Shown: piece after piece, positions 42,645 through 62,079 of the stretch
Layout of the letters: every line of letters begins with the position of its first letter
Position numbering within the stretch: the stretch's first letter is position 1
Assembly: GCA_017525235.1 (NCBI GenBank)
Contig: JAFXTC010000002.1
Location: 44,064 to 108,063, forward strand
Source: Bacteroidaceae bacterium
GTDB lineage: Bacteria > Bacteroidota > Bacteroidia > Bacteroidales > Bacteroidaceae
Length of the DNA: 64,000 nucleotides
Direction of reading: 5' to 3'
Notes under the pieces: generated by a model
What the model saw: only the letters and a program-made list of their open reading frames with translations
Told to the model about the DNA's origin: nothing
Databases searched by the model: none
Made by a program: the position numbers and the translations under genes

Positions 42645-45008
42645 TTATATGATAAGGTGGACCAAAAATGCCACAATCCATGCTATGAGGCATTGTCCGG
42701 CCATAATCAGTAAAGCCCATTTCCCACCCAACTCTCTGCGAATGGTAGCTATGGCGGCAACACAGGGTGTATAAAGCAGGCAGAAAACAAGCAGCGTAAA
42801 AGCTGTTCCTGCCGAGAAGACTTCTGTAATACTTACTCCAGCAAAGAGAGTGCTGAGTGTGCTAACGACTACCTCTTTAGCCAAAAAGCCACTGACAAGT
42901 GAGGTAACAATGCGCCAGTCGCCACACCCCAATGGGCTGAAGAGCGGTGCTACAATGCTGGCCATATTGGCGAGCATACTTTCTGATTCCTTACCAGGTT
43001 GCACCATCTGAAGGTGAAAATCGAAGGTTTGCAGGAACCAGATGACTATACTTGCCAAGAATATAACGGTGAAGGCTCTTTGCAAGAAGTCCTTCGCTTT
43101 TTCCCATAACAAACGGACAACATTCATAGGAACGGGCATACGGTAATTGGGAAGTTCCATCACAAAGGGAACAGCCTCGCCCCTGAAAAGTGTTCGCTTC
43201 AGAATCAGTGCCACCACAATTCCGGTTAGTATACCTATTATATATAATCCGGCCATTACCCATCCTGCATGGCGTGGGAAAAAGGCGGCGGCGAAGAAAG
43301 CGTAGATGGGAATCTTAGCTGTACAGCTCATAAAGGGGGTAAGCATGATAGTCAGTCGTCGGTCACGTTCACTGGGAAGTGTTCTGCTGGCCATAACACT
43401 GGGAACGGAACAGCCGAAGCCTATCAGCAAGGGAACAATACTACGACCAGAAAGTCCCAGTTTCCTGAGCATCTTATCCATCACAAAGGCAATACGCGCC
43501 ATATAGCCGCTATCCTCCAGCATACTCAGACAGAAGAAGAGGATAATGATAAGCGGAAGGAACACCAATACCGTTCCCACACCACTGTAAATGCCGTCTA
43601 TGATAAGTGAATGAATGGATGGCGCAATATTCCACGAGGTAAGAGCTTGATCTGAAATGTTTGTGAATTTCTCTATTCCCTCTTCAAAAAGTTCTTGTAA
43701 CCAGGCTCCCACACTACTGAAGGTGAGATAGAAAACAAACGCCATAATGGCTAGGAACGCAGGAATGGCGGTAAAACGACCGGTTAGAATGCGGTCGATA
43801 CGACGACTGCGTTTTTGCTCCTTGCTTTCGCGTGGATGTAAAACGGTGCGACTGCAAACCTGACGGATAAAGTTGAAACGCATATCTGCCATAGCCGCAC
43901 AGCGGTCAAGACCGCGTTCCTGCTCCATCTGCTGGAGTATATGCTCTACTGTTTCTTGCTCATTTTGCGTTAATTGTAATGCCTTGATAACTAACGGGTC
44001 GTTCTCTATGAGTTTGCCTGCAGCAAAGCGAATGGGAATATTAGCTTTGGCAGCATGGTCTTCAATAAGGTGCATGATGGCATGTAAGCAACGGTGAACG
44101 GCTCCCCCATGGTCCTCTGGACTGCAAAAATCCTGTCGGCCTGGTCCTTCCTGATATTTTGCTACATGTATGGCATGTTTCACCACCTCATCAACGCCCT
44201 CATTCTTCATTGCGCTGATAGGGATAACGGGGATGCCTAACATGCGTTCCAATAGGTTGATACGTACAGTTCCACCGTTATTTTTCATCTCATCCATCAT
44301 ATTCAACGCCAATACCATGGGTATATTTAATTCCATCAATTGCATAGTTAGATACAAGCTGCGTTCTATGCAAGTGGTATCTATGATGTTGATAATGCCT
44401 TTAGGACGACTCTCAAGGATAAACTGACGACTTACAATCTCCTCACTGGTATATGGACTCAGGCTATAAATGCCAGGAAGGTCGGTAACAAGTGTGTTGG
44501 GATACCCTTTTATTACACCGTCTTTTCGGTCGACTGTAACCCCAGGGAAGTTTCCTACATGCTGACGGCTACCGGTGAGCTGGTTGAAAAGAGTTGTCTT
44601 TCCGCAGTTTTGGTTTCCCACAAGGGCAAAGGTTAACTTCTCAGGCAGGGCAGGACCATGAAACTGTGATGGGTCGTGATATCTGGGGCCATCCTCGCCC
44701 AATCCAGGGTGTTCAACGGGACTTTCCCATTTTTCTTCATGTGTAGCAGAATTGTCTGCAGCACTCCTCCAAGAGGGGAGCGGAGAGTGAGTCTCTATTT
44801 CTATTTGTTCAGCATCTGCCAATCGCAATGTAAGCTCATAGCCATGAATACGCAACTCCATCGGGTCACCCATAGGTGCAAACTTCTGCAACTCTACCTC
44901 GGCACCAGGAATTACTCCCATGTCCAGAAAATGCTGTCTCAGAGCACCCGTTCCACCCACCTGGGTAATAACGGCCTGTTGTCCTTTCTTTAAATCTCTA
45001 AGCGTCAT
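42645..45008 (-). CDS. feoB: ferrous iron transporter, FeoA-FeoB fusion
   Basis: 787 residues. Residues 1-70 are a FeoA (SH3-like) domain: LRDLKKGQQAVITQVGGTGALRQHFLDMGVIPGAEVEL. A linker (71-125) follows, part of it encoded by a GC-rich palindromic repeat (SPLPSWRS). The G domain starts with FALVGNQNCGKTTLFNQLTG (G1), VTDLPGIYSLSPY (G3) and LALNMMDEM (G4). The membrane part carries the Gate motif IGFGCSVPSVMASRTL and a second Gate with LLYTPCVAAIATIRRELG. It imports Fe(II) across the inner membrane under anoxic conditions. A minus-strand TACTTTTG box is at 45031-45038, 22 bp before the start. Confidence 0.96.
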   Translation of the reverse strand: MTLRDLKKGQQAVITQVGGTGALRQHFLDMGVIPGAEVELQKFAPMGDPMELRIHGYELTLRLADAEQIEIETHSPLPSWRSAADNSATHEEKWESPVEHPGLGEDGPRYHDPSQFHGPALPEKLTFALVGNQNCGKTTLFNQLTGSRQHVGNFPGVTVDRKDGVIKGYPNTLVTDLPGIYSLSPYTSEEIVSRQFILESRPKGIINIIDTTCIERSLYLTMQLMELNIPMVLALNMMDEMKNNGGTVRINLLERMLGIPVIPISAMKNEGVDEVVKHAIHVAKYQEGPGRQDFCSPEDHGGAVHRCLHAIMHLIEDHAAKANIPIRFAAGKLIENDPLVIKALQLTQNEQETVEHILQQMEQERGLDRCAAMADMRFNFIRQVCSRTVLHPRESKEQKRSRRIDRILTGRFTAIPAFLAIMAFVFYLTFSSVGAWLQELFEEGIEKFTNISDQALTSWNIAPSIHSLIIDGIYSGVGTVLVFLPLIIILFFCLSMLEDSGYMARIAFVMDKMLRKLGLSGRSIVPLLIGFGCSVPSVMASRTLPSERDRRLTIMLTPFMSCTAKIPIYAFFAAAFFPRHAGWVMAGLYIIGILTGIVVALILKRTLFRGEAVPFVMELPNYRMPVPMNVVRLLWEKAKDFLQRAFTVIFLASIVIWFLQTFDFHLQMVQPGKESESMLANMASIVAPLFSPLGCGDWRIVTSLVSGFLAKEVVVSTLSTLFAGVSITEVFSAGTAFTLLVFCLLYTPCVAAIATIRRELGGKWALLIMAGQCLIAWIVAFLVHLII
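44764..44793. repeat. GC-rich palindromic element, copy 7 (FeoA-FeoB linker)
   Basis: CTCCTCC, loop, GGGGAG (44764-44780; one G-T pair), followed by CGGAGAGTGAG. It lies in frame in feoB and encodes about ten residues of the interdomain linker. Confidence 0.75.
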
Positions 45009-49543: not shown

Positions 49544-50749
49544 TTATCCTGCATAGCTGTGCATGCCGCCCAACAGGAAGTTTACACCAAAGTAAGTCAT
49601 CAGCAGACAGGCGAAAGCAAGAATCGAATAGATGCGATAGTTGCGTATGCTATTGAACCAAGGCAGGCTTTTGTTGTGAAGAGGGATACTATAGACAAGC
49701 AACGTAATAAGCGCCCAACTCTCCTTGGGGTCCCAACTCCAATAGGTTCCCCAAGAAACGTTTGCCCACACAGCACCCAGAAAGATACCTGTTGCCAGCA
49801 GGAATACGGCTGGTCTGAGCACATCTCTGCGGGCGATGCTCACCACCAGTAGAATGTAACTCAGCATGATGGTTCCCACATGAACAACAAGGTACGGAGA
49901 ACGTAATATCGGTACCAGCGGACTTCTGCTTATGGCAATCACCATGTACGAAGCCATTACGGTGCCGCAGAGGGCCAGTAATATAGTTGAGAGTTGGCCA
50001 TTGAACATTGACCATTGACCATTGAGCGTTGAACATTGAACATTGTCTGTTGGCAATTTTTCTTTATTCTCTTTTAATTTTTCATTCCTTTTCAGGGATA
50101 CCCAAATCATGCTAATGGCTAAGAGTAGGTAGCCAGCGTACGTTATGCCTGTTCCCCAAGGGTCGAAGCTGATGGTGAAGATGCTCCCTTTTAGATCCTC
50201 GTCATAGGATGTCTGATAAATGCGGTAGCCACTGATTCGGCCAATGTTGTTCATAGAGATGGTTGTCTCGTCCTTTCCCTTCTTGGTGGCTATTACCACG
50301 TGACTGATGTAGTCGCTATGTGATATCCCGTCAGCGTCATACAGAATCTCAAATTTCTGCAATGCCAGATAGAAGGGCATCTTTTCTGTCAGTGTGTACA
50401 ACCCTTGTTCATTCTTTACCCAATAAGAACGACAGGCTTCTCCCTCACGTAGATGAATCATACCCCTGTGGCTGGTGACATGTGTAGTAAGGGCCCCAAC
50501 CAGAATGATTAGGAAACTTAGATGCAGTAGAAAGACAGAGGGTTGCTTCCACATCTTACGCTTATAGATGAGCCGGCATCCTGCCAATGCCAGCAGTGCC
50601 CAAAGTGCAACAAACCACCATGCTCCATAAACATGCTGAAGGGCGTGCTGAGTGCCATAACGATTCTCCAAAACAGTAGCGACCGCTATGGCAATAACCA
50701 AAAAGATTACCAGTATAAAGGGAAGTTTAGAACTTACGGAACTTCTCAT
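49544..50749 (-). CDS. ResB-CcsA fusion, cytochrome c biogenesis (System II)
   Basis: 401 residues from the ATG at 50749 (MRSSVSSKLPFILVIFLVIA), which overlaps the RidA-like gene by 23 bp. The first half (two N-terminal membrane helices, a periplasmic region with HLREGEACRSYWV and ISGYRIYQTSYDEDLKGS, and a third helix) is ResB-like. The second half has several helices and the haem-handling WxWD motif in VSWGTYWSWDPKESWALITLL, typical of CcsA. The linker between the halves (about 235-255) is encoded by AATGTTCA-type tandem words. Such proteins attach haem to exported c-type cytochromes; the nearby dihaem and monohaem lipoproteins are natural clients. Confidence 0.87.
   Translation of the reverse strand: MRSSVSSKLPFILVIFLVIAIAVATVLENRYGTQHALQHVYGAWWFVALWALLALAGCRLIYKRKMWKQPSVFLLHLSFLIILVGALTTHVTSHRGMIHLREGEACRSYWVKNEQGLYTLTEKMPFYLALQKFEILYDADGISHSDYISHVVIATKKGKDETTISMNNIGRISGYRIYQTSYDEDLKGSIFTISFDPWGTGITYAGYLLLAISMIWVSLKRNEKLKENKEKLPTDNVQCSTLNGQWSMFNGQLSTILLALCGTVMASYMVIAISRSPLVPILRSPYLVVHVGTIMLSYILLVVSIARRDVLRPAVFLLATGIFLGAVWANVSWGTYWSWDPKESWALITLLVYSIPLHNKSLPWFNSIRNYRIYSILAFACLLMTYFGVNFLLGGMHSYAG
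49985..50048. repeat. CATTGA(A/C)CATTG tandem words inside ccsA-like gene
   Basis: About seven degenerate units of CATTGAAC/CATTGACC run through the coding sequence and encode the ResB-CcsA linker (STLNGQWSMFNGQLST). The same words, on the other strand, are in the GH2 gene at 24441-24472. Confidence 0.8.
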
Positions 50750-51866
50750 GGTGCTGCTTCTTGACTGCCACGCACTCCATCTCCACAAGCCAAGTGGGAC
50801 GACATACAGGAGCCAATGTTATTACCTTTGGAATCTCGGGGAAACGTTCGTCAAAGAGTTCTTTTACCAGCTCATAGTCGGCAGTATCTCGCAGGTAGAC
50901 AATAATCTGCATCACATCTTGGAAGTCGGCGCCGCCCTCTTTCAGTAAGGTCTCCACATTTTCCCACATGCGCTTGGTCTGTAGAACGATGTCTCCAACA
51001 TGTTCCACTTCGCCCTTGTTGTTGATGCTGGCTGTTCCGGAAATGATAATGTGATCTCTGTCGCCATATTCCACAACCGTTCCGCGTTCAAAGGTTACAC
51101 CGTATTCATAGGTAGGATTCAGGTGTGTGGGAGCATACAGATAGTGTTGCTGTTTTGGCTCCAAGCCTGTTATGGCATATGTTCCCAATTGTACCAATGA
51201 TTTTGTGTCGGCAGGGTTGCCGCCTATTCCTGTGCTGCTGATGTAATGCGTCTTTTCTGTTAAACCTTGCTGGATAAAGTTCTCACGACGTGCTTTCACC
51301 AATCCGTGATACTGTGTATCTACATCGCGGACAAAGAACCAGGTACGAATGCAATTCTCTGCTAGCGTAGCATCAAACTTCGCCAGTAGTGCCTCATATT
51401 CGGTCAGCAAAGCTTCTGTCTGCTGAGCGCTGTCGCCTTGGTTCTTGCACATGCCCATCTTCCACAGGTGTTGATAGCCATTGTGCTTTGCCACTACCAC
51501 CCCCTCTTCTTCTTTTACCTCCATGTCGCTTTGCAGATAAAGCCAGGCGGCAATCTTGCTGCCGTCCAATGGTTGCTGTTGAATAAAACTGATGGAGATG
51601 TTCTTTTCCTGTCGCATCAAAGGTTGCTGATTGGTGCTGTCTGACAGGAAGTAACGTTTCAAGATATATTTGGCGCCCCAAAATTCGGGCATATCGGGCA
51701 GACTGTCTTCTGCCTTATAAAGTCTACGGAGCTGGTCGGCAAAGGGTTGCTGTTTGCTGTCAACATGCAGCATTACATGCCATTCAGTAACGCCCTCTTT
51801 GGGCGTGAACATGGCTACTTCTGCGATTACTCCAAGCTCTTCAAATTGTATGTTATTATAATTCAT
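50727..51866 (-). CDS. RidA/YjgF-family protein, long form
   Basis: 379 residues from the ATG at 51866, placed 5 bp after a consensus promoter box. The C-terminal 130 residues (RGTVVEYGDRDHIIISGTASI, GDIVLQTKRMWENVETLLKEGGADFQDVMQIIVYLRD, ITLAPVCRPTWLVEMECVA) are a RidA domain; the arginine in VCRPTWLVE corresponds to the ligand-binding arginine of active RidA. The first 250 residues show no strong match and may be a degenerate second domain. RidA proteins destroy reactive enamines and imines. It overlaps the ResB-CcsA gene by 23 bp, so the two are translated together. Confidence 0.82.
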   Translation of the reverse strand: MNYNNIQFEELGVIAEVAMFTPKEGVTEWHVMLHVDSKQQPFADQLRRLYKAEDSLPDMPEFWGAKYILKRYFLSDSTNQQPLMRQEKNISISFIQQQPLDGSKIAAWLYLQSDMEVKEEEGVVVAKHNGYQHLWKMGMCKNQGDSAQQTEALLTEYEALLAKFDATLAENCIRTWFFVRDVDTQYHGLVKARRENFIQQGLTEKTHYISSTGIGGNPADTKSLVQLGTYAITGLEPKQQHYLYAPTHLNPTYEYGVTFERGTVVEYGDRDHIIISGTASINNKGEVEHVGDIVLQTKRMWENVETLLKEGGADFQDVMQIIVYLRDTADYELVKELFDERFPEIPKVITLAPVCRPTWLVEMECVAVKKQHHEKFRKF

Positions 51867-51871
51867 GGGTG

Positions 51872-51902
51872 CAAAGATACGATTAAGTGAGAACAATACA
51901 AA
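51872..51902 (-). promoter_or_regulatory. near-leaderless promoter of the RidA-like gene
   Basis: On the minus strand TTTG (51899-51902), 19 bp, and TATCTTTG (51872-51879). Only 5 bp separate the box from the ATG at 51866, so the transcript should have almost no leader. The same arrangement occurs at the patatin gene. Confidence 0.7.
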
Positions 51903-51975
51903 ATAAAACACTTTTTATTTTTATTGTCGAACGTGAGTGTCTTTGAAATGATAGTCTCAAATTTACGAAAAATAG

Positions 51976-52800
51976 TTATTCTAAATTGTTTATCCATTCG
52001 TCAATTAGCAGTCTTACCTCGTTCAGGTTCTCCCTGAACTGATTGCTCAAAATCTCTGTATGGTTAACGTGCAAAAGGTTTTCTCCACCTTCCGCCATTA
52101 TCTGATGAATGAGTGATTCTTGAGCATTGCCACTTACTACTCGCACCGTGCCTTCTTTACGTGTACTGGGCATGTTCACCAAATTGGCAAAAGAACGACC
52201 TTCAGTCAGATTCAGGCTTGCGGCACCCGCTCCTCCGTTTCCACCATGGCATTGTATGCAGGCCATATTGAACAATCCCTTTTGCAGAGCACCAAACCGG
52301 CTTATATCCGTAAGGCCTAAGTCCATGTGGATGGTATCTTTCTGATTGACGTAGTCGTCTAGATTCACTTTTGCAATGGTGATGATGCGTTCGCGCAGTC
52401 GGTTTGTTATAGCAAGTTCCACTGTGTTGATATCTTCTCCGATGTTGGAGAGCACCAACTCAACCCTTGTACTGTCTGGTGTAGTATTGGGTATGGTACG
52501 AACCACCTGAGCATAGTTGTCGCCAATGGTGAAACCTGCCAGGGAAACAGCGTATTTATTTTCCCACGAGTTTATGCCGAAAAGAACTGCCCTCAACTTT
52601 ACCGTTTTTCCTTTATCCGTTGTGGAAAGTGCTTGCTCCTCAATATCACCAGAGTCGCAAGAAACCAGAAAAAAAGTAAAAAGTGAAAGAGTGAAGGCTG
52701 CGATTGAGCGAGAGCAATGATAGGCTTGCTTAAACATTGCCGAGCGTGAGCAGGCTCGACCGCAGGTCAAAAGTGAAAAATAAATGAATCTTTTATGCAT
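51976..52800 (-). CDS. c-type monohaem lipoprotein
   Basis: 274 residues with one haem-binding motif, MACIQCHGGNGGAG (CxxCH). The lipobox FFLVSC marks a lipoprotein. The ATG at 52800 gives a 48-residue signal region, much of it (residues about 13-41) encoded by repeat DNA; an ATG at 52737 would give a normal 27-residue signal and may be the true start. The middle has a beta-sandwich look (VELVLSNIGEDINTVELAI). It ends with LIDEWINNLE. It lies 17 bp after the porin in the imelysin operon. It probably passes electrons or haem with the dihaem DUF1111 lipoprotein (inference). Confidence 0.8.
   Translation of the reverse strand: MHKRFIYFSLLTCGRACSRSAMFKQAYHCSRSIAAFTLSLFTFFLVSCDSGDIEEQALSTTDKGKTVKLRAVLFGINSWENKYAVSLAGFTIGDNYAQVVRTIPNTTPDSTRVELVLSNIGEDINTVELAITNRLRERIITIAKVNLDDYVNQKDTIHMDLGLTDISRFGALQKGLFNMACIQCHGGNGGAGAASLNLTEGRSFANLVNMPSTRKEGTVRVVSGNAQESLIHQIMAEGGENLLHVNHTEILSNQFRENLNEVRLLIDEWINNLE
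52670..52780. repeat. repeat-derived signal region of the monohaem lipoprotein
   Basis: AAAGTGAAA-GAGTGAAGG words, then GAGCGAGAGCAATG and CCGAGCGTGAGCAGGCTCGACCG with internal inverted pairs (GAGC..GCTC), then AAAAGTGAAAAAT again. All lies inside the N-terminal coding region. Confidence 0.6.
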
Positions 52801-52817
52801 TGTGAATCTTAAATTAA

Positions 52818-54068
52818 TCAGAAGCTGAACTGAAGTTGAACAGAAGCGTGGTGGGTAGAAATGCCCAAGTCGTCATTATCGCGGTCAAGCTGTGTCTGGT
52901 GACCATACCTTCCTGTGAACTGGTACATAGCCGAGAGTTTGAGATGCACCTTGGGAATATAGTAGTTACAAACTACAGCCGGCATGTTCAGGAAACCATC
53001 TTTTGTCGTTCCGTTTCTGTCCATAAAATCATATCTTACACCCAGTTGAACGGTAGGTGTAACAAAATATCCTACCTGAGCGTATGCACCCCAGTAGTTG
53101 AACGTATCATCTATCTTCTGACGTTTAGTAAAGCTCACATGCATCCAGTAAGCTTCGGCTCCCACATACCAACGGTTCAGTAGCATAGAGAATTCTGCTC
53201 CAAGACGAGCATCATTAGTGCTCTCGCTTTCACTTTCTACATTCAGTCCGCCGCTGACACCAAATAGCATGTGCCTTCCGTGCAGCATTTTGGCATTACC
53301 CTGTGTGGCTGGCATCTGCCCCCAAGGCATAAAGGTAAGTCGTCCGGCATAAAGTAGGGCGGGAATATGCCAATCGTCTGAGAGTGTTTTGGTGGCAGCA
53401 TTAATAGATGAGCCGCTACCATTCCACAGTCCGACGTCATAACCCATCAGCCAACTGTTGGGTTTTTTATTCAGTTTGGCAACACCATGAAATTCTACAC
53501 CAATGTCAAACCCTGTACCGATGTTAGGTGTAACTGCATTCAACACATGGGGCATGATGGTGGAAGTTGTGAGCGACGAGGGTAGAATAGGAAATAGCGT
53601 TTCACCCAACGTCGTCAGATAAGCATGTGTGAAGGGCGTTTTGAACTTTCCTACACGAAAACGAGCTGCAGGATTAATCCGATAGTCCACCCATGCCTGT
53701 TGCAAGATATCAGCACCCTTGGCTGCTGCATTAATAGAAAGGTTATAATCTAACCGACCAAAGGTTTTACCTGTAAAACCCAATATGGCGTATGGAATGG
53801 CAAAGCCAGAGTTGGCTACATTATCCTGATTGTAAGCCTTGTCCAGCCCCTCATCGTCGTAGTAATTAAATTGTCCTCGAGTTTGTAGGAACAGATAGGG
53901 TTTAAAGACGAACTTTCCGTTCTTCGACTGAAGCGTGAAGCCTCGGTCATCTGCAATTCCTAACACACCATTCTCCATATCAATGTTCAGCGAATCCTGA
54001 GCTAGAGCAAAGTTTAGAGTGAAGAGTGAAGAATGAAAAATGATAAGTACTAAAGCTATTCGTTTCAT
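52818..54068 (-). CDS. outer-membrane porin (second in the imelysin operon)
   Basis: 416 residues with a signal peptide whose core, HSSLFTLNFALA, is encoded by TTCACTCTTCACTCT-type words (about 54008-54035). The mature part is a beta-barrel: FVFKPYLFLQTRGQFNYY, FRVGKFKTPFTHAYLTTLGETLFPILP, LNAVTPNIGTGFDIGVEFHG, and a terminal strand ASVQLQFSF. It resembles phosphate-selective porin O/P proteins. It lies between the DUF1111 lipoprotein and the monohaem lipoprotein and would let an iron or haem complex cross the outer membrane (inference). Confidence 0.8.
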   Translation of the reverse strand: MKRIALVLIIFHSSLFTLNFALAQDSLNIDMENGVLGIADDRGFTLQSKNGKFVFKPYLFLQTRGQFNYYDDEGLDKAYNQDNVANSGFAIPYAILGFTGKTFGRLDYNLSINAAAKGADILQQAWVDYRINPAARFRVGKFKTPFTHAYLTTLGETLFPILPSSLTTSTIMPHVLNAVTPNIGTGFDIGVEFHGVAKLNKKPNSWLMGYDVGLWNGSGSSINAATKTLSDDWHIPALLYAGRLTFMPWGQMPATQGNAKMLHGRHMLFGVSGGLNVESESESTNDARLGAEFSMLLNRWYVGAEAYWMHVSFTKRQKIDDTFNYWGAYAQVGYFVTPTVQLGVRYDFMDRNGTTKDGFLNMPAVVCNYYIPKVHLKLSAMYQFTGRYGHQTQLDRDNDDLGISTHHASVQLQFSF

Positions 54069-54117
54069 AATTTATGTTCTTTTCTAAAGTCTATAGTCTT
54101 TTTCGTTATCGTTATCG

Positions 54118-55641
54118 TTAAAGACTTTCCAAAAATTTGATAAGCGCTGAGCGATCATCCTTGTGCATTTTCTTAAACAGGTTCTTAGAGGCTTCTCCCT
54201 CGCCTCCGTGCCATAGGATGGCTTCTTGCAGGTTACGGGCTCTTCCGTCGTGCAGGAAATAGGTGTGCGCGTTTACCTTTTCTTGCAGGCCAATGCCCCA
54301 CAAGGGTGTTGTGCGCCATTCGTTACCTCTGGCTAGACCGCTGACGTAATTGTCGTTTAGTCCTACGCCCATAATTTCCGATCCCATATCATGCAACAGG
54401 TAGTCGCTATACGGATGAATGGTTTGGTTACCTAACCAGGGGAGTTCTGTTCCGTTCAGAAGCGCAGCGCCACGTGGCTTGGTATGCAATGTTGTTACGT
54501 GACAAAGATGACATTTGGCTTCGAAGAACATCTGCTCGCCTTTTTCTATCAGTTGGCGTTCTGAGATACGCTTACCCTTATAGTCAACCTGTGTGGAAGC
54601 GCTACCCAATCTACGGGCGGGAACACCTAGCCCATGCAGATAGTAATCCACATCTTCCATATCCTCGGTCGAGATATCCAGTTTGTCATATAGCAGTCCC
54701 ATCATAGAGCCTTGCTGCATTTGCATCTGACCCTCGCAGATTTCCTCTGGATAGCGGCTGTTAGTTACACCCATATCGCTGGAGAAGCCCAATTCGACGG
54801 TCAAATCGGCATGTTGTGCTTTATTGCCCGATAAGCCCAATCGCAATTGACCTCGTTCCGTAATGTAGTTGCATCGGCCAGAGATGCCATATTCCGGATA
54901 ATTGGATTTCTGGGCCAAAGCCTCAATTTCATTGGGGTCAAGTGCCATCATTTGTCCCATACCCACATGTCGTAGAGGCACGCGGACGGTACAGAACAAA
55001 TCTTCTGGGCGGATGGGGTCGTCCGTATCTCTATAGGTGGGTTTGTACCAGTCGGTAATGGTGTATTCTGGATAGACTAGTTCGTATGGTTCACCGTCAG
55101 GGAAGGTAAACTGTTCGCTATGCCATCGGCATTCCAACTTGCCTTCGGCCGTAACACCCATGATGCTTTGATCGTGGATAACACGACCGTAATCTTGAAA
55201 GAAAGCCCCATTCTTACGAGTCACATAAACCAACATCGAAGAAAAACCATATGTTCCGCTCCCATAAACAGGTGTACCGTCTGGGTCTTGCCCATTCTGT
55301 GTCCATAGGCCAGGTTTGGTACGACCCGCATTGCGATGGCAAGAACCACAGGAGTAACCTGCATATACAGGCCCCAAACCATTACCCGAATTTAGTGGAT
55401 TGTCATAAAGACGATCGCCGTGTGTGAAACGTTTCTCGTTGGCAGGAATCTTGGCTACCCAGTCGGCCTCTGTATCGTAGGCATAGCTGGAGTTCTTAAA
55501 GACTGTAGAGGTGCCGGCAGAAAGGACAAACCCTTCCGGTACCTCTAGGTCTCGAATGTCATTCACCTCTAAACCATCATTCTCACAGCCCCAAAGAACT
55601 GTGAGAACAATGGCTAATAATAGCCTAATAATTTTTTTCAC
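54118..55641 (-). CDS. DUF1111 dihaem lipoprotein (thiol oxidoreductase-like)
   Basis: 507 residues, lipobox VLWGC (C19). Two CxxCH motifs: YSCGSCHRNAG (C98-H102) and AKCHLCHVTTLH (about residue 380). FLHDGRARNLQEAILWHGGEGE near the C-terminus is shared with dihaem peroxidases of the MauG/CcpA type. DUF1111 genes are known next to imelysin genes in Proteobacteria, where the set is iron-regulated. Substrate and electron donor are unknown. It sits 23 bp after the imelysin gene and 49 bp before the second porin. Confidence 0.88.
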   Translation of the reverse strand: MKKIIRLLLAIVLTVLWGCENDGLEVNDIRDLEVPEGFVLSAGTSTVFKNSSYAYDTEADWVAKIPANEKRFTHGDRLYDNPLNSGNGLGPVYAGYSCGSCHRNAGRTKPGLWTQNGQDPDGTPVYGSGTYGFSSMLVYVTRKNGAFFQDYGRVIHDQSIMGVTAEGKLECRWHSEQFTFPDGEPYELVYPEYTITDWYKPTYRDTDDPIRPEDLFCTVRVPLRHVGMGQMMALDPNEIEALAQKSNYPEYGISGRCNYITERGQLRLGLSGNKAQHADLTVELGFSSDMGVTNSRYPEEICEGQMQMQQGSMMGLLYDKLDISTEDMEDVDYYLHGLGVPARRLGSASTQVDYKGKRISERQLIEKGEQMFFEAKCHLCHVTTLHTKPRGAALLNGTELPWLGNQTIHPYSDYLLHDMGSEIMGVGLNDNYVSGLARGNEWRTTPLWGIGLQEKVNAHTYFLHDGRARNLQEAILWHGGEGEASKNLFKKMHKDDRSALIKFLESL

Positions 55642-55664
55642 TATTTTCTTTAGCGTTTTTAACC

Positions 55665-56834
55665 TTAATAGCTTCTTGCTTTACCGTCTTTGAATAGCAG
55701 GAATTCTAACGTGTGGAAGCCACGTACGTTTTGAGCGGCGCTAATATTATCATTATCTTCATCATATTCGCCTTCCCATATTATCAGTTCCTCTATATTT
55801 CCGCTTTCCATTACACCTTTGATGGCATCCACATCCAAAGGCCATGAGTCCATGTTGGGGTCAAGACCTAAATCGGCAACAGGACCGAAGAGGAAGGCTT
55901 CGCTGGTTTCCCAAGGTTCACGAGCTTCGATCCAAAGGTCAGCCGCACTCTTGAAGTTGGCTATTGAAGGCTCGTTGCTCAGCTCAACGATAGCCTGACG
56001 CAATGCAGTGGTCTTGCTAACCAAATCTGCGTATGTGGGAAGTACCACCTGATCAACGTAAGTGCTTACAATATTCTCCATTTCATCGTCGTCTGCATGC
56101 AGGTTGATGAAACTGATAAGATCTTTCTCCAAAACATCTACCAATGCTGCGCAAGCATCTTGAGCTGCAACAACGCTGTTGCTGCCAATGTGACTGCGGA
56201 AGGGGGCATTCATACCCTTGATGGCATTATAAGCGGTCTCAACCTTAGACTTAACAGAAGCATACAGAGTAGCGTCCTTTTCCTTTATGAAGGCTGCTAG
56301 CGAATGAGTAGCTTCTGTATTGTCGCGAGTACCATTCAAAGCGTTGCGGATGCTGAGAATGTTGTTGGAATAATCATCGATAGAATGCCAACTGTACCAC
56401 GATTCCACTGCATATACAGCCTCTGTGTATTTGCCGGATTCCCAAAGGTCGCGTGGCTCGCCAATCTTGGCAGTTCCCACCTCGCTGGCAATATCTATAC
56501 AGCCGTCTACAATCTGTTGTACGCAGGCTGCAGCACTATTGTATTCGCCACCAAAAGTTTTGAATGTCTGAGCGTAAGACTCACCATCGTTGTAACTAAC
56601 ACTCCAAGCTTGATTCAGGTCGCTGGCATCCTTAGCAAGTAGATTAGCTACGGCAGTAGCGTATTGAGTCCAGGTGGTAACATTTTCTGCCGTTACATCA
56701 ATGTTGTCTTCGTTAATGCTTACGTCAGCAGTACCTTCGGGAATGTTTTTCTCACCACCGTTTTCATCTTTGTTACAAGCTGCGAAGCCTAATCCCATAG
56801 CCAATAGGCTAATCATAATTACGTTCTTTTTCAT
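55665..56834 (-). CDS. imelysin-family lipoprotein (M75)
   Basis: 389 residues, lipobox GFAAC (C20). Mostly helical, with the imelysin motif GxHxxE in VRGFHTLEFLLFKDG (G372, H374, E377), and FLFGPVADLGLDPNMDSWPLD, characteristic of the family. Imelysins were first described as peptidases, but related proteins bind iron or haem and are made when iron is low. The gene is second in the operon, after a porin and before the DUF1111 lipoprotein. Confidence 0.9.
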   Translation of the reverse strand: MKKNVIMISLLAMGLGFAACNKDENGGEKNIPEGTADVSINEDNIDVTAENVTTWTQYATAVANLLAKDASDLNQAWSVSYNDGESYAQTFKTFGGEYNSAAACVQQIVDGCIDIASEVGTAKIGEPRDLWESGKYTEAVYAVESWYSWHSIDDYSNNILSIRNALNGTRDNTEATHSLAAFIKEKDATLYASVKSKVETAYNAIKGMNAPFRSHIGSNSVVAAQDACAALVDVLEKDLISFINLHADDDEMENIVSTYVDQVVLPTYADLVSKTTALRQAIVELSNEPSIANFKSAADLWIEAREPWETSEAFLFGPVADLGLDPNMDSWPLDVDAIKGVMESGNIEELIIWEGEYDEDNDNISAAQNVRGFHTLEFLLFKDGKARSY

Positions 56835-56866
56835 ATTATTATTGGTTTACAATTTACTGTTTGCGA

Positions 56867-56893
56867 ACTAAAGTCTAGCGCCTAAAGTCTAAT
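56867..56893. repeat. CTAAAGTCTA tandem words at the porin stop codon
   Basis: CTAAAGTCTAGCGCCTAAAGTCTAA lies between imelysin and the upstream porin and supplies the porin's TAG stop (56889-56891). It is the complement of the TAGACTTTAG family seen at 35205, 36369 and 63079. Confidence 0.75.
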
Positions 56894-58253
56894 TCTTGAA
56901 TTTCCATTTGTTGTCCTTCAGGAACCATCCTATGTATGCCACGCCAAGGGCAAATTCATTTTCTGATTTGTACTGTCCATTACCTATTCTGCGCATAGTG
57001 TAGTCTGCCTTTATTACCAGGTTGGGCAAGGGACGATAGTTCAAACCTGCCACCCACATCTGGGTTTTCAGGCGCAAATCAGCTCCCTTCAGGTTATTTG
57101 CATCCACTATTACCTTCTCCTGTGGGTTATAGTATTCGTAGCGGAAGAATGGGATGAAATCGGGCATTTTTGCATTGTTCACAAAACTTTTCAGATTCAA
57201 TCCTGCTTCAACACCGTAGCTTACCCCACGCTTAGCGATAGGAGACAAACGACTATATGGCGATTTGTTGCTTAGCCTGCTGTTCTTGGCACTCAGCAAA
57301 CTGCTGTTGCCAATATTGCCACCCAAAAGATTCCCTCGTACCGTAAAGTAGCGATTCCTGTATTGTGCATCTACCGACCAGATGGTAACGGGAACCTTGA
57401 AGGTGTAGGTCTGTGGCTTGTCGCTGTTCGCGGCGGCATTATTTACGTAATAGACAGAGGCTCCTAAGCGCAGGCCGGGTATTCCTCTGTAATTGATGCG
57501 TGCAACGTAGGCGGGAGAGGTAAAGTTATCCGTCTCAAAGAAACCCTGTTTGCCACCTGCTACCCATGTGTTACGATCGAATCCGTTTGCATTTAGGCCT
57601 GCAAGTATCATAAACTGATAATCAAATGAGGCCCATTTTTTTCCCAATTCACCGAAGAAGCTAATGCCAGTTTCATGCCAAGTACTAGGCAGTAGGGTTG
57701 TCTCGCCTTCAGGGCGTACAGTGCCAAAGAAGTTGATTGGTTCGTGGTGTGTATTGGTCAGGCCAACAGGAACTATCTGATGTCCCACGCGTACCATAAA
57801 GGCATTGTTCAGTCTGTAAGTTAGATGAAACTGCTCCAGCGCCACTTCGCCTCCTTTCTCTACTTCTGTCTCGTACTCCCCGTTTTCTGTGTTTTCTATT
57901 TCGTAGGCGGTTCCAGTACCTCCTGCTTCAAATTCTACCTCAACACCCAAGTTCCAGTGCTTGTTGAACTTGTAGTCGCCACCTATCACAAATCTTGGAA
58001 TAGAAATCGTGTTACGTTTGAAATCGCTGTTTCCCTGTGCTGTGCCGCTAAAGCGATTGATACCATAGTTCTTGAACTGAGCCAAAATCTCGCCATAACC
58101 ACCAATACGGTAACGGCCATAGCTGTCCATCTCCGTAGAATCGTTGTTCCACTGAGCGTAAGCGGCAGTGCCAATTGCCAATTGATAATTGATAATTGAT
58201 AATTGATAAGTTCCTATCATCAATACCAATGTAAGTAGTAATCTCTTCATCAT
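56889..58253 (-). CDS. outer-membrane porin-like protein, first gene of the imelysin operon
   Basis: 454 residues with a signal peptide whose core YQLSIINYQLAIG is encoded by AATTGATAATTGAT tandem words. The mature part is a beta-barrel (YRIGGYGEILAQFKNYGINRFSG, FNKHWNLGVEVEFEAGG, FMVRVGHQIVPVGLTNTHHEP) that ends with strand-like FALGVAYIGWFL. HEPINFFGTVRPEGETTLLPSTWHE matches a group of Bacteroidetes porins placed beside imelysin genes. A consensus promoter lies 26 bp upstream. It probably admits the iron source used by the operon (inference). Confidence 0.82.
   Translation of the reverse strand: MMKRLLLTLVLMIGTYQLSIINYQLAIGTAAYAQWNNDSTEMDSYGRYRIGGYGEILAQFKNYGINRFSGTAQGNSDFKRNTISIPRFVIGGDYKFNKHWNLGVEVEFEAGGTGTAYEIENTENGEYETEVEKGGEVALEQFHLTYRLNNAFMVRVGHQIVPVGLTNTHHEPINFFGTVRPEGETTLLPSTWHETGISFFGELGKKWASFDYQFMILAGLNANGFDRNTWVAGGKQGFFETDNFTSPAYVARINYRGIPGLRLGASVYYVNNAAANSDKPQTYTFKVPVTIWSVDAQYRNRYFTVRGNLLGGNIGNSSLLSAKNSRLSNKSPYSRLSPIAKRGVSYGVEAGLNLKSFVNNAKMPDFIPFFRYEYYNPQEKVIVDANNLKGADLRLKTQMWVAGLNYRPLPNLVIKADYTMRRIGNGQYKSENEFALGVAYIGWFLKDNKWKFKN
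58171..58210. repeat. AATTGATAATTGAT tandem words inside a signal peptide
   Basis: CAATTGCCAATTGATAATTG-type units, five or so with a period of about 8 bp, lie in frame in the 56889-58253 gene and encode YQLSIINYQLAI. Confidence 0.85.
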
Positions 58254-58278: not shown

Positions 58279-58309
58279 CAAAGGTACGGCGTGTTTCTGT
58301 GCCTCGCAA
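58279..58309 (-). promoter_or_regulatory. promoter of the porin-imelysin-DUF1111 operon
   Basis: On the minus strand TTG (58307-58309), 20 bp, and TACCTTTG (58279-58286), 26 bp before the porin start. No clear Fur box is visible; the two palindromes at 58387-58470 lie upstream and are candidates for regulator binding. Confidence 0.7.
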
Positions 58310-58386
58310 TACACAAATTCTATGAAATTGCTACTTCTGAAGTGTATGTCAGTACTTGTTTTTGATGACTTATGTTAGTTGTTTAT

Positions 58387-58404
58387 AAATTCTCTAGAGA
58401 ATTT
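58387..58404. repeat. 18-bp perfect palindrome, copy A
   Basis: AAATTCTCTAGAGAATTT reads the same on both strands. The same core with one more base on each side is found 65 bp away (centre to centre). Confidence 0.9.
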
Positions 58405-58450
58405 TCTGGAATGAAGTGTAGTTTTGGTTGTTATTAAGCTTGAATGCGGC

Positions 58451-58470
58451 AAAATTCTCTAGAGAATTTT
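58451..58470. repeat. 20-bp perfect palindrome, copy B
   Basis: AAAATTCTCTAGAGAATTTT is self-complementary over all 20 bases. With copy A it makes a spaced pair that would suit a dimeric DNA-binding protein. Confidence 0.9.
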
Positions 58471-58474
58471 TACA

Positions 58475-58550
58475 ACTTCTAACGTAGAAAATCTTCACTT
58501 GTAACGCAGGCCCCCCCTACTTGTAACGTATAAAATAACCACTTATTGTA
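58475..58550. repeat. iteron-like direct repeats, 22-bp period
   Basis: ACTTCTAACG at 58475, ACTTGTAACG at 58497 and ACTTGTAACG at 58519 start exactly 22 bp apart; a weaker ACTTATTGTA at 58541 continues the phase. The spacer sequences differ, so it is the word and its spacing that are conserved. Confidence 0.8.
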
Positions 58551-58588
58551 TGCTTCAATGCAGTTTCAAGGCTTTAATACACCAAAAT

Positions 58589-58692
58589 CATGTATCTTTA
58601 TGTAGGTATCATGTAGGCTTTATGTAGGCTTGAAAGCCAAAGAATCACGATAACTATCGGGGTAGAAAGGCAAAACCATGTAGGCATGTAGG
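58589..58692. repeat. TGTAGG word array
   Basis: TGTA(GG) starts at 58591, 58601, 58612 and 58623 (10, 11, 11 bp), then at 58679 and 58687 (8 bp). Most copies read (C/T)ATGTAGGC. The units are too short and variable for a CRISPR. Confidence 0.75.
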
Positions 58693-58768
58693 CAATTTCG
58701 TGTTTCCAAATAATTTTTTCAACAAACAAATAAACGGGAAATAATGACTTTTGTAAGTAAAAATTTCA

Positions 58769-58799: not shown

Positions 58800-60455
58800 A
58801 TGGCAACAGCATGTTACATCAACGTTTATAACAGTCACGTGGACCGAGGTTCCAAGGTGACTACAGTCCCTCATGAACACTACGAGGTGGACGAGAGTGA
58901 AATCGTAGTGGGCCAACCGCTGCCCAAGTTGTGTGCGACAAACACGGTGACAGCCTACGATGGCGCACAAATCACGCTTGCACTATACGGCAAGACCTAC
59001 ACCATCAAGATTGATGAGGAGGTTGAGGTGGCCTGTAGCGAGCACCATGTTGGCGGGGGTGTCTATAGCCGTAACTGCTATTGCGTCCGACTGCTTGACA
59101 CGAAAATCATCTATAAGGGTGGCTGGCAGTGGGGAGATACCATCCGGCAGGAACTGAAAGGCCCCATCGGCGACGGAGAGGTGTTCTACCCCAATGGCGA
59201 CCACTTCAAGGGCATGTTCCACCTAAGCTATGCCAGCATCAACGGACCAGCCTACGCCGCAGAGGGGCGCTACACCTTTGCCGACGGCAGCTACATTGAG
59301 CACGCATGGATACACACCTCGAAGGACAAGAAGCCTGAGTGGTGGGGCCTACACGGCGTTTTCCGCATCCAGTGCCCGCCACCCTCCGCAGCGCTTCCTG
59401 CGGCAGGAAAGCCCGATAGCATCGCTATGTTCCTGCACGGAGGGCGGCGCTATGGGTTCGAGCTGGTTCTTGACAAGGGAGCCTATGACAAGGAAAAGCC
59501 ATGGGTGAGGGAGTGGTACGCCGGCGATAGCATCGTACGCTATACGGGACCAGACGATCTCTTCCAATATGAGGTCGTGGATTATGAGTTGGACGAGAAG
59601 GCCGAGGAAGGCTTCACCGCGCTGCGACTGACGCTGAAGGACGGCAATAAGACATATAAAGTGGAGCAGCGAGGCGGCCGCTACGAAATAAACAAATATG
59701 ACAATCAGATTTATGAACCCTCGACCCGTGTCACAGTCTGGCTACCCAACGGCGACTCTCTCGACCACTATGGCGATGACGTGAAAGACTTCAAGCCCTA
59801 CGACGGCTATGTGGAAGTACACCGTGCCAAGACTGCACAATGCCGCACGGAGCATTGGGAGAAAGGCAAGCTCGTTGACGACAGGGAGTGGCAACGTGAC
59901 AACCTCTTCTCGAAAAAGGTCACACTACCCGACCCCACTGGCATCGGCAGTGAGATGCTGGCCAACGTGTGGGCAGACGGGCACATCAGTTACAACTACG
60001 GCGAATGGGTCTATGACGGCGAGGTGAAGAATGACCGTCCCGAGGGCCAAGGCGTGCTTGTGGGCAACGACTATCACGGCCGGCGCCGTTATGAGGGCCT
60101 CTTCATCGACGGACAATATGCGGAGGAAGAGACCTTCACAGGCAAGATCATGCTGCACGCTAAGAGCGGTTACAAGCACTGGTCGGTTTACAGCGATGGC
60201 GAGTGGAAGTATAAGGAGTACGACATGGAGGCCAAACTCGGCACGCTGGGTGCCGACGGTTTTTGGAACTATGAGATTACGAAAATCACCCAAGAAGCCA
60301 TCACCATCTCCTTCTACGACAAGACCTACACTCTCACGCCCGACAATCCGCTGAACCTCCCCATTTCCGTAATAGAGGGCCACGAATACAGCGACGGCTG
60401 CGTGTACGACGGCGATGACTATTCGCTGGAATTGACGTGGAAAAGTGAAATTTGA
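58800..60455 (+). CDS. MORN-repeat-like protein, 551 aa, GC-rich
   Basis: No signal peptide or membrane segment, so probably cytoplasmic. MORN-type units are visible: GDGEVFYPNGDHFKGMFHLSY and AAEGRYTFADGSYIEHAWI (about 120-165) and YDGEVKNDRPEGQGVLV with RRYEGLFIDGQYAEE (about 405-440). The short motif YGKTYTIKIDEEVEV near the N-terminus recurs near the C-terminus as YDKTYTLTPDNPLNLP, which suggests an internal duplication. Base composition is clearly richer in G+C, with codons such as GGC, CTC and GAC favoured, unlike the flanking genes. Function is unknown. A second, shorter MORN-like gene follows after 40 bp. Confidence 0.78.
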   Translation: MATACYINVYNSHVDRGSKVTTVPHEHYEVDESEIVVGQPLPKLCATNTVTAYDGAQITLALYGKTYTIKIDEEVEVACSEHHVGGGVYSRNCYCVRLLDTKIIYKGGWQWGDTIRQELKGPIGDGEVFYPNGDHFKGMFHLSYASINGPAYAAEGRYTFADGSYIEHAWIHTSKDKKPEWWGLHGVFRIQCPPPSAALPAAGKPDSIAMFLHGGRRYGFELVLDKGAYDKEKPWVREWYAGDSIVRYTGPDDLFQYEVVDYELDEKAEEGFTALRLTLKDGNKTYKVEQRGGRYEINKYDNQIYEPSTRVTVWLPNGDSLDHYGDDVKDFKPYDGYVEVHRAKTAQCRTEHWEKGKLVDDREWQRDNLFSKKVTLPDPTGIGSEMLANVWADGHISYNYGEWVYDGEVKNDRPEGQGVLVGNDYHGRRRYEGLFIDGQYAEEETFTGKIMLHAKSGYKHWSVYSDGEWKYKEYDMEAKLGTLGADGFWNYEITKITQEAITISFYDKTYTLTPDNPLNLPISVIEGHEYSDGCVYDGDDYSLELTWKSEI

Positions 60456-60495
60456 AATGGTCAATTGTAAATCGCCAAACAGTAAATTGGAAATT

Positions 60496-60990
60496 ATGGA
60501 AGCAAGAAAGATTATCCGTTTGAACTACGATGGTGATAAAGATACCCAGGGACTACCGCACGGCGAAGGGTACATGGAATACATTGTGGATGAAGAGCAC
60601 ATCCCCTTCCCGCAATACCCCGACCTGCAGAACTATTACAGAGACGTAGGTCAAATGATCTACAAAGGCCACTTCGAGCACGGTATCCGGCAGGGCAAGG
60701 GCTACCTGTCCATGCTCGGTCTCAGGCGAGCCGACCGCTACGAGTGGTACTCCGAGGGCGATTACGACTGCGGTCGCCTTATTCATCCCGCACACCCCGA
60801 TGGCTCCTACCGTGACGACGTGTGCACGAAATACTGGTTCACACTCTTTGAGGGAACGTGGGAGGACGATATGCCGCTCAAGCCACGCTATCCCGAACAA
60901 AAGCTCCGTGAGGATGACCTTATCGACATCCGCCGCACCAGCAAGGAGGAACTGGAAAAGATATTCAATTTCTCTTCCATTCCTTTATAG
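60496..60990 (+). CDS. MORN-repeat-like protein, 164 aa, GC-rich
   Basis: The ATG at 60496 (MEARKIIRLNYDGDKDTQG) was chosen because the DNA before it (60456-60495) is an AATTGTAAAT/AAATTGGAAATT repeat stretch like those between other genes here; an ATG at 60445 overlaps the upstream gene. Visible MORN-type units are LPHGEGYMEYIVDEE and MIYKGHFEHGIRQGKGYLSML. Codon use matches the upstream 551-residue protein, so the two probably arrived and work together. The C-terminus (DLIDIRRTSKEELEKIFNFS) looks helical. Function is unknown. Confidence 0.75.
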   Translation: MEARKIIRLNYDGDKDTQGLPHGEGYMEYIVDEEHIPFPQYPDLQNYYRDVGQMIYKGHFEHGIRQGKGYLSMLGLRRADRYEWYSEGDYDCGRLIHPAHPDGSYRDDVCTKYWFTLFEGTWEDDMPLKPRYPEQKLREDDLIDIRRTSKEELEKIFNFSSIPL

Positions 60991-61075
60991 TTTTCTTGTA
61001 CCTACTTTTGATGATTTTTGCGCCATTGATAGCATACTGCTTATCAAAAAAGGTGGCTGATTGTGAACTTTGTTG

Positions 61076-61083
61076 TACCTTTG
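61076..61083 (+). promoter_or_regulatory. -7 box of the hemerythrin-LuxR regulator
   Basis: TACCTTTG at 61076-61083, 21 bp before the ATG at 61105. It excludes an upstream in-frame ATG at 61063 as start. No TTTG was found at the expected -33 position. Confidence 0.5.
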
Positions 61084-61104
61084 CATCAGAAAAACAAAGA
61101 TACA

Positions 61105-62079
61105 ATGACAGAGAAATATCACGAGTTGGATCCTATGAGCGATGTCATCAGTGATGACTATCGCATGTTGCAGATGCTGGGACGTTTTGGCATAACCCTG
61201 GGATTTGGAAATCAGACGGTGGGAGAGACGTGTAAGGCTGCAGGAGTGGATGTAACGACCTTCCTCACGGTTGTAAACTACGTAAAAGATGCGGCTCATG
61301 CACACATTAATGAGATGGTAGAGCAGATTAGCTTGCCTTGCTTGATACGCTACCTGAAGAATTCACATAGCTATTTTGTGGATTTCCGTCTGCCAAATAT
61401 CCGTAGGAAGCTTTTGGAGGCTATCGACTGTTCATCCTCTAACCAGATTGCCATGCTGATACTCAAATTCTATGATGAGTATGCTGCCGAGGTGGCTCGT
61501 CACATGAAATACGAGGATTCTCATGTTCATCCTTTTGTCGAGAATCTGCTTAACGGAAAAGTTGGGGCTGAGACGTTTGATACGGTGGTCCGTCAGCATG
61601 AAGACAATCATGCTTCCATAGAAAAGAGTATTGCCGAACTGAAGAACATCATTATTAAATACTATCCTAACGACAATGCTGCACAGCTAATGGGTGAGGT
61701 CCTGATGGACATCTTTATGACCGAGGAGGATTTGCTTACCCACTGTCACATGGAGGATACGCTCTTTGCCGAGTGTGTAAGACGCTTAGAATTTCAGGTG
61801 CGCCAGAATGGTGGTTCAGAGGTGGAAAGTTCCGAAGAATATGAAGAGAAAAGTACGCCTGCTTCTAACGACCTGAGTGAGCGTGAAAAAGATATTGTGG
61901 TGCAGGTGGCCAAGGGACTTTCTAACAAAGAGATTGCCGACAGGCTCTTCATCTCAGTGAATACCGTTATGACGCACAGACGTAATATTAGCCGGAAGTT
62001 GCAGATTCACAGCCCTGCTGCTTTAACCATTTATGCATTGGTAAATGGACTGGTAAATCTCGATGAAATTGCTGTTTAG
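61105..62079 (+). CDS. RIC/hemerythrin-domain LuxR-type transcriptional regulator
   Basis: 324 residues. Residues 25-60 (GRFGITLGFGNQTVGETCKAAGVDV) resemble the ScdA_N domain of RIC iron-centre repair proteins. Residues about 80-230 form a hemerythrin-like four-helix bundle with the candidate ligands H88 (NSHSYF), H133 and E137 (RHMKYED), H165 or H169 (RQHEDNH), and H213 and E217 (THCHMED). One histidine of the E. coli YtfE set (H105) has no clear counterpart. Residues 257-316 are a LuxR/GerE helix-turn-helix (LSEREKDIVVQVAKGLSNKE, FISVNTVMTHRRNI). It looks like a one-component sensor of oxygen, nitric oxide or iron state that binds DNA directly. It stands alone between the MORN genes and a convergent PfkB gene. 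Confidence 0.88.
   Translation: MTEKYHELDPMSDVISDDYRMLQMLGRFGITLGFGNQTVGETCKAAGVDVTTFLTVVNYVKDAAHAHINEMVEQISLPCLIRYLKNSHSYFVDFRLPNIRRKLLEAIDCSSSNQIAMLILKFYDEYAAEVARHMKYEDSHVHPFVENLLNGKVGAETFDTVVRQHEDNHASIEKSIAELKNIIIKYYPNDNAAQLMGEVLMDIFMTEEDLLTHCHMEDTLFAECVRRLEFQVRQNGGSEVESSEEYEEKSTPASNDLSEREKDIVVQVAKGLSNKEIADRLFISVNTVMTHRRNISRKLQIHSPAALTIYALVNGLVNLDEIAV

Follow-up and report, generated by a model that had tools for sequence, protein, structure and literature searches.

Among the loci that the major gut commensal Bacteroides thetaiotaomicron induces highly in low iron is BT2473-BT2482, which increased 63-324-fold under that condition and 14-33-fold in a colitis study (Lewis and Gui 2023, PMC10434189). 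The locus is annotated as fimbrillin, CcsA, hypothetical, porin, thiol oxidoreductase, peptidase M75, hypothetical and helix-turn-helix (HTH) regulator; the parts of that paper drawn on here assign no function to it (PMC10434189), nor was one found in the literature searched. For the imelysins, to which the M75 protein belongs, a structure has been available since 2011, yet the literature surveyed holds no agreed ligand for them. Here we analyse an operon of matching annotated order, porA-imelysin-DHOR-porB-cyt1, at positions 51976..58253 of a 64,000-nucleotide stretch of DNA from a Bacteroidaceae bacterium (the whole stretch is called the window below), and report its gene content and order, the circular permutation of its imelysin and the conservation of the imelysin site, the linkage of a glutamate-rich porin hairpin to imelysin, and the promoter elements present in relatives.

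The gene set is a conserved outer-membrane set of gut and rumen Bacteroidales that may serve iron uptake independently of the usual receptors. With moderate confidence we read the operon as the rumen-Bacteroidales form of an iron-starvation module for iron acquisition at the outer membrane, which would feed Feo and has porA, imelysin and DHOR as its core. A role in iron acquisition taken by itself is very probable; the whole chain of steps proposed below is held with less confidence.

Gene order and the three-gene core

The five genes all lie on the minus strand and are separated by gaps of 54, 23, 49 and 17 bases:
56889-58253, minus strand: porA, first gene, outer-membrane porin-like barrel (Porin_O_P, 31.3 bits)
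55665-56834, minus strand: imelysin (Peptidase_M75), circularly permuted, lipoprotein (Pfam, 177.9 bits)
54118-55641, minus strand: DHOR (DUF1111), di-haem oxidoreductase, lipoprotein, GTG start (PF06537, 194 bits)
52818-54068, minus strand: porB, Porin_O_P porin (154.5 bits)
51976-52800, minus strand: cyt1, mono-haem c-type lipoprotein, CxxCH and H247 invariant

Both porins exceed the Pfam gathering cut-off for Porin_O_P (20.9 bits); for cyt1, Pfam gives only sub-threshold cytochrome c matches. A previous reading of this DNA from its letters alone (the sequence-only reading) had placed the five genes here with their motifs, and all reading frames were confirmed, as were the intact GxHxxE of the imelysin (GFHTLE), the two CxxCH of DHOR (CGSCH and CHLCH) and the one of cyt1 (CIQCH). 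Its assignment of three lipoproteins also stood: the lipidation Cys is kept in 44/44 imelysin, 57/57 DHOR and 44/44 cyt1 aligned rows (the imelysin alignment excludes non-permuted rows and fragments).

A scan of 84,980 species genomes yielded 49 related loci. The sequence-only reading had staked its case on the five-gene order being kept in relatives, and all five genes were found in the same order and direction in 40 of the 49; a chance arrangement is therefore excluded. Of the nine incomplete loci, seven are cut off within the set by the edge of a contig; the other two, from Odoribacteraceae (L049 and L050), have porA-imelysin-DHOR-ccs only, ccs being a haem maturation gene described below. 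Sampling of 99 genomes from the order turned up imelysin in 12, which carry 12 different family labels. DHOR was above the cut-off in the same 12 and adjacent to imelysin each time (a thirteenth DHOR match fell below the cut-off), and the order porA-imelysin-DHOR held in 12/12. Since these three genes stay together in all 12, the real unit is a three-gene core, with porB and cyt1 as an extension.

A sample of 296 genomes of the phylum contained a porA homologue in 58 and imelysin in 70, and porA, imelysin and DHOR occurred together in nine outside the order (L104-L109, L119, L124 and L125). A Rieske protein gene lies between porA and imelysin in L119, L124 and L125. The other Bacteroidota imelysins sampled are of an imelysin-DHOR-imelysin type (L126-L128) or have no DHOR nearby and are accompanied by reading frames of 445-504 and 814-891 amino acids (L130, L131 and L132).

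In L108 and L109, which belong to one genus, a haem oxygenase gene is situated between imelysin and DHOR (L108:6432-7052 and L109:10294-10929). This gene inside the core favours a module that takes haem or haem-released iron, with DHOR and cyt1 serving haem breakdown or protecting against it, as does the low-iron induction in B. thetaiotaomicron of the Hmu haemin locus together with BT2473-82 (PMC10434189). However, the haem oxygenase gene is found in 2/21 core genomes (the genes outside the core being mostly unclassified), and the B. ovatus imelysin melted at a lower temperature in the presence of haem and has a pocket too small for haem unless its shape changes (PMC3143127). We assign this explanation a small probability.

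The PorA hairpin, the imelysin site and the haem proteins

The most strongly conserved part of PorA is an acidic hairpin:
57846-57941, minus strand: acidic hairpin of porA, residues 105-136, with 11 conserved Glu, of which the seven at 118-132 are imelysin-linked

These 32 positions hold 11 Glu, whereas the rest of the mature protein (388 positions) holds 14. Each of the 11 reaches a conservation of 97% or more in an alignment of 59 rows (the window, 11 distant genomes and 47 of the 49 loci; the fragments L005 and L032 were dropped by a length filter), and the best-conserved 32-residue segments of porA start at residues 107-112. Judged by eye from strand and turn lengths, the hairpin would form an extracellular loop. 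Its acidity argues against phosphate or pyrophosphate selectivity of porA.

The linkage of this glutamate-rich hairpin to imelysin is new here. Outside the order the stretch is present in 6/9 imelysin-linked porA and in 0/13 unlinked paralogues (Fisher p 0.0011), and with the 12 order genomes included the figures are 18/21 and 0/13 (Fisher p 6e-7), both values being computed on 13 unlinked places and ignoring shared descent. Ten further unlinked porA, from genomes without an imelysin match, also lack the stretch, which makes 0/23. The sampling comprised 20 neighbourhoods, two more picked for an adjoining imelysin and these ten inspected for the hairpin only; the neighbourhoods represent the stronger porA matches among the 58 genomes, the weaker ones lying outside. 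The search profile was built from hairpin-bearing proteins, and the top matches are therefore biased toward the hairpin.

As a separate observation, the hairpin-less PorA paralogues in L112, L113 and L115 adjoin FMN-binding-domain proteins and perhaps belong to a separate flavin-linked outer-membrane system.

The closest solved relative of the imelysin is B. ovatus PIBO (3n8u/3oyv, E 6e-104). Positions 1-116 of the M75 profile match residues 264-385, positions 121-285 match the preceding part, and 3n8u aligns to residues 39-387 in a single stretch, so the protein has the permuted topology of PIBO. The site residues listed for PIBO by Xu et al. 2011 (PMC3143127), transferred by our own numbering shift, are here E118, K123, E144, S148, D154, N158, R305, E309, E312, D325, D329, H374 and E377. 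In a set of 22 rows (21 unpermuted, canonical imelysins and the rearranged window protein) they show no variation in any row with a letter at the position, save S148 (A in four rows), and H374 and E377 are present in 22/22.

The family name would make the imelysin a secreted metallopeptidase, and the B. thetaiotaomicron imelysin BT_2479 was indeed detected in culture supernatant; a mutant, however, retained the protease activity tested (PMC6282197). The B. ovatus structure has no peptidase-like site and the protein did not bind zinc (PMC3143127), which largely refutes a peptidase for that species and leaves the idea very improbable here.

The supernatant finding also bears on location. Surface export of SusG in Bacteroides requires acidic residues at +3/+4 (PMC6222051); D or E at both positions was found in 18/44 imelysin, 17/57 DHOR and 0/44 cyt1 rows, and two neighbouring D or E within +2 to +6 in 35/44, 34/57 and 24/44, so that many imelysin rows have an export-signal-like N-terminus. 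The signal peptide of BT_2479 has served to secrete colicins via vesicles (PMC13192842). Because of the acidic N-terminal signal, the supernatant finding and this use in secretion, the imelysin is probably located outside the cell; for DHOR and cyt1 a surface position is hypothetical. The electron path at the cell surface toward Fe(III) that the sequence-only reading proposed is likewise a hypothesis.

In DHOR both CxxCH motifs and H417, H464 and H478 are invariant across 26 diverse rows. Profile searches of the PDB with DHOR, porA and cyt1 found no full-length relative; for DHOR the best match was weak (3o5c, cytochrome c551 peroxidase, E 0.36), followed by 9qdt (E 8) and short cytochrome pieces, and no MauG or MbnH entry was among the matches.

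These data bear on the rival that we take most seriously, in which DHOR oxidises residues of imelysin, for example an interface tryptophan, and only the modified imelysin binds metal; MbnH does likewise to MbnP for copper. In the order sample DHOR and imelysin always occur together, DHOR combines its two CxxCH with a C-terminal HDG...His pattern that we take to be that of the CcP/MauG group, and W308 and W331 of the imelysin are invariant, with W301 being W in 17/20 rows with a letter. Such maturation would also explain why recombinant imelysin bound neither iron nor haem (PMC3143127). On the other hand, W308 and W331 may be merely structural, W301 is F in three rows, and the nearest PDB entry of DHOR is a peroxidase rather than MauG or MbnH. 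We regard this maturation as unlikely.

Pfam names DHOR a putative peroxidase, and hemerythrin domains, one of which is found in the candidate regulator described below, commonly sense O2 or NO. Both points fit a defence against peroxide or oxygen, in which the DHOR peroxidase protects iron handling at the outer membrane, imelysin is an accessory and the regulator senses oxygen or NO. Such a defence would not be expected to have a fixed porin link, and the matching B. thetaiotaomicron locus is highly induced by low iron in an anaerobe in which iron-containing defence proteins such as rubrerythrin then decrease (PMC10434189). We consider it rather improbable.

Promoter, candidate regulator and neighbouring genes

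Upstream of porA the following elements were located:
58279-58309, minus strand: promoter TTGC-N19-TACCTTTG, Bacteroidota-type, ending 25 bases before porA
58310-58325, minus strand: proximal dyad position, directly adjoining the -33 box, with the drifted copy TCATAGAATTTGTGTA
58353-58368, minus strand: distal dyad position, drifted copy TCATCAAAAACAAGTA, candidate regulator site upstream of the promoter
61063-62079, plus strand: hemr, hemerythrin domain and LuxR-type HTH (Pfam), candidate regulator near the operon

The promoter follows the Bacteroidota consensus. Its full pattern recurs in 25/45 upstream regions of relatives (0.31 in shuffles) and the -7 box, on which the promoters were anchored, in 38/45 (4.6 in shuffles). 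The sequence-only reading had put all five genes under one promoter; the promoter before porA bears this out, while a second TAnnTTTG match in the gap between cyt1 and the next gene, rid, leaves the claim of a single promoter qualified.

A 16-base dyad, TACCYAAnnTTRGGTA, placed against the -33 box or farther upstream, was present with at most three mismatches in 27/46 upstream regions of relatives (shuffle mean 1.7, largest 6) and in 2/173 control regions before inner genes; the consensus was picked after viewing the same promoters, and the comparison with shuffles is therefore generous. Clear palindromes occupy the proximal position in L022, L028, L044 and L047. The 7-2-7 layout is presumably that of NarL/LuxR-type heptamers.

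The source assembly is 72.7% complete, which bounds every statement below on an only match in the genome. With that limit, hemr is the only hemerythrin match. A hemerythrin-LuxR gene lies divergently upstream of porA in 24/49 loci and downstream in five more, and stands beside the cluster in 5/12 order genomes. Its position and the promoter dyad are the two ties that make hemr a candidate regulator of the operon. In relatives such as L003 the regulator gene and porA are immediate, divergent neighbours; in the window two genes, one of them weakly MORN-like, separate hemr from porA (58800-60990).

Between these genes and the promoter (58385-58760) lies a dispersed repeat that contains GCCTACAT iterons as well as a pair of perfect palindromes, AATTCTCTAGAGAATT, at a spacing of 65 bases. 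This palindrome, present twice before porA, was rejected as an operator of the operon: the pair has five genomic copies, with the same 65-base spacing, in the repeat, of which the copy here happens to be just upstream of the porA promoter, and the palindrome core is found in 0/51 loci compared.

Downstream of cyt1 lie two further genes and, at a greater distance, the Feo gene:
50727-51911, minus strand: rid, FkbO/Hyg5 chorismatase-like, its C-terminal part of Rid type, following cyt1 in 36 loci
49544-50788, minus strand: ccs, ResB-CcsA haem c maturation protein, true start uncertain
42645-45008, minus strand: FeoA-FeoB fusion, proposed importer, not in the operon, ending 4.5 kb beyond ccs

The maturation gene was said by the sequence-only reading to lie directly downstream, which needs correction, as rid intervenes and ccs is the second gene after cyt1. 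The ccs gene is the sole ResB match in the genome. ResB presence was rejected as a marker of the system: it is found in 71/99 sampled genomes of the order, so that its presence says little and only its position informs. In the 12 imelysin genomes ccs is inside the cluster in eight and elsewhere in four. NrfA was rejected as the reason for ccs, since an NrfA match is absent in 10/12 imelysin genomes, this one included; in those ten ccs may therefore serve DHOR and cyt1. The ResB-CcsA gene downstream makes covalent haem on DHOR plausible.

The rid gene is conserved after cyt1. Its product scores 47.7 bits against NCBIfam TIGR04444, below the cut-off of 325, and its C-terminal vCr...liEmE lines up with VCR...LVEIE of 5ag3 (Cys-Arg and Glu), an entry that we take to be Hyg5, with functional roles assumed for these aligned residues. 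Conceivably, rid is tied to iron through a small aromatic compound that acts as chelator or shuttle.

The FeoA-FeoB fusion is the only FeoB match in the genome and lies 7 kb from the operon. FeoB was found 3.8-10.3 kb downstream of cyt1 in five of 21 relatives (L004, L012, L017, L018 and L041), upstream of porA in L020, at a distance of about 2 kb, and 55 and 89 kb off on the same contig in two. The iron role put forward by the sequence-only reading thus draws on this neighbour, on the haem oxygenase gene in the cluster of two genomes of one genus, and on the B. thetaiotaomicron locus of the same annotated order, with its increase in low iron and colitis (PMC10434189).

Proposed function and described systems

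In the iron-acquisition reading, iron scarcity would be sensed by the neighbouring hemerythrin-LuxR protein acting at the porA promoter dyads. At the outer membrane the imelysin lipoprotein would use its conserved carboxylate/His site to capture iron or a complex of it. The haems would be attached by ccs, cyt1 would be the electron carrier for DHOR, and DHOR with cyt1 would alter the redox state of the captured iron, most likely from Fe(III) to Fe(II). The glutamate-rich hairpin of PorA would act as a cation-binding mouth, the iron crossing the outer membrane without TonB, and FeoAB would import the Fe(II). The most specific form of this, in which PorA is a TonB-independent iron porin with the hairpin as a carboxylate ladder for iron and imelysin needs the prior action of its di-haem partner, either on the iron or on imelysin itself, to become competent, is put forward tentatively and may well be wrong.

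Several observations weigh against this reading. Purified B. ovatus imelysin bound neither haem nor Fe(III) by thermal shift (PMC3143127). The pair porB-cyt1 occurs in 4/12 sampled families and is missing from 8/12, so the core does without it. FeoB is not near the operon in 15/22 genomes (a different contig carries it in 12, two have it far off along the same contig, and in one it was not found). The upstream region of the window has no dyad copy within four mismatches, its own copies being degenerate. In PorA, Glu 105, 107, 109 and 136 are also retained in nearly all unlinked paralogues, which restricts the tie with imelysin to the seven at 118-132; three imelysin-linked PorAs (L119, L124 and L125) have no hairpin, and in the hairpin of L107 four of the 11 Glu are changed, the other hairpins outside the order carrying one Asp substitution. 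Where the hairpin and the haem ligands lie in the folded proteins is predicted from sequence. Finally, BT2473-82 was equated with this operon from the annotated order and from the permuted imelysin that B. thetaiotaomicron has according to the PIBO paper (PMC3143127), rather than from a sequence comparison.

If the iron-porin form of this reading is true, a receptor-free route of iron uptake under a hemerythrin-LuxR switch would exist across Bacteroidota. The fixed partner set, with its acidic-hairpin porin and di-haem enzyme, and the candidate regulator make both the function of the locus and the ligand of imelysin directly testable.

Among the closest described systems is BT2473-BT2482, in which the thiol oxidoreductase corresponds to DHOR and the annotated order is shared; the low-iron induction and the increase in mouse colitis are features of the B. 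thetaiotaomicron locus. It differs in a fimbrillin gene at one end, and the parts of its description drawn on here contain neither the core nor the hairpin (PMC10434189). PIBO (PMC3143127) shares with the window imelysin the circular permutation, the site residues, the lipoprotein nature and the link to DUF1111, but was studied as a lone recombinant protein, and the word porin is absent from its paper. P. aeruginosa PA4370-PA4373 likewise joins imelysin to an EfeB/DUF1111 homologue, is Fur-regulated and has no EfeU; unlike the present operon it has two imelysins, the type also seen in L126-L128, and the passages on it used here mention no porin (PMC3143127). In the Bizionia MliR study, imelysin, Rieske and cytochrome c genes are co-regulated, be it in one cluster or apart (PMC9478572).

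EfeUOB resembles the operon in combining an M75 protein, a haem enzyme and an iron link. Here, however, the haem protein is a c-type DHOR and a cupredoxin domain was not found; the EfeU (Ftr1) permease is absent among the operon genes, a genome-wide search not having been made. EfeB itself has been classed as DUF1111 (PMC3143127) but also as DyP (PMC3577903), the protein here being PF06537 with c-type motifs. Regulators of the CdhR type (PG1236-37, BT0519-520, fused in Prevotella intermedia) share with hemr the combination of hemerythrin and a DNA-binding part and are increased in low iron (PMC10434189); hemr differs in lying near the operon, to which position and promoter dyad tie it.

The phosphate porins OprP and OprO, which use a basic ladder for anions, belong to Porin_O_P, as porA and porB do by their Pfam scores, whereas porA carries a glutamate-rich hairpin. 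A literature search, with most subscription journals outside it, found no description of the porA-imelysin-DHOR core or of the hairpin. The sequence-only reading had regarded the set as undescribed; an iron-responsive locus of this kind has, however, been published before (PMC10434189). The operon belongs with the imelysin-DUF1111 iron systems, among which its glutamate-hairpin porin could represent a new principle.

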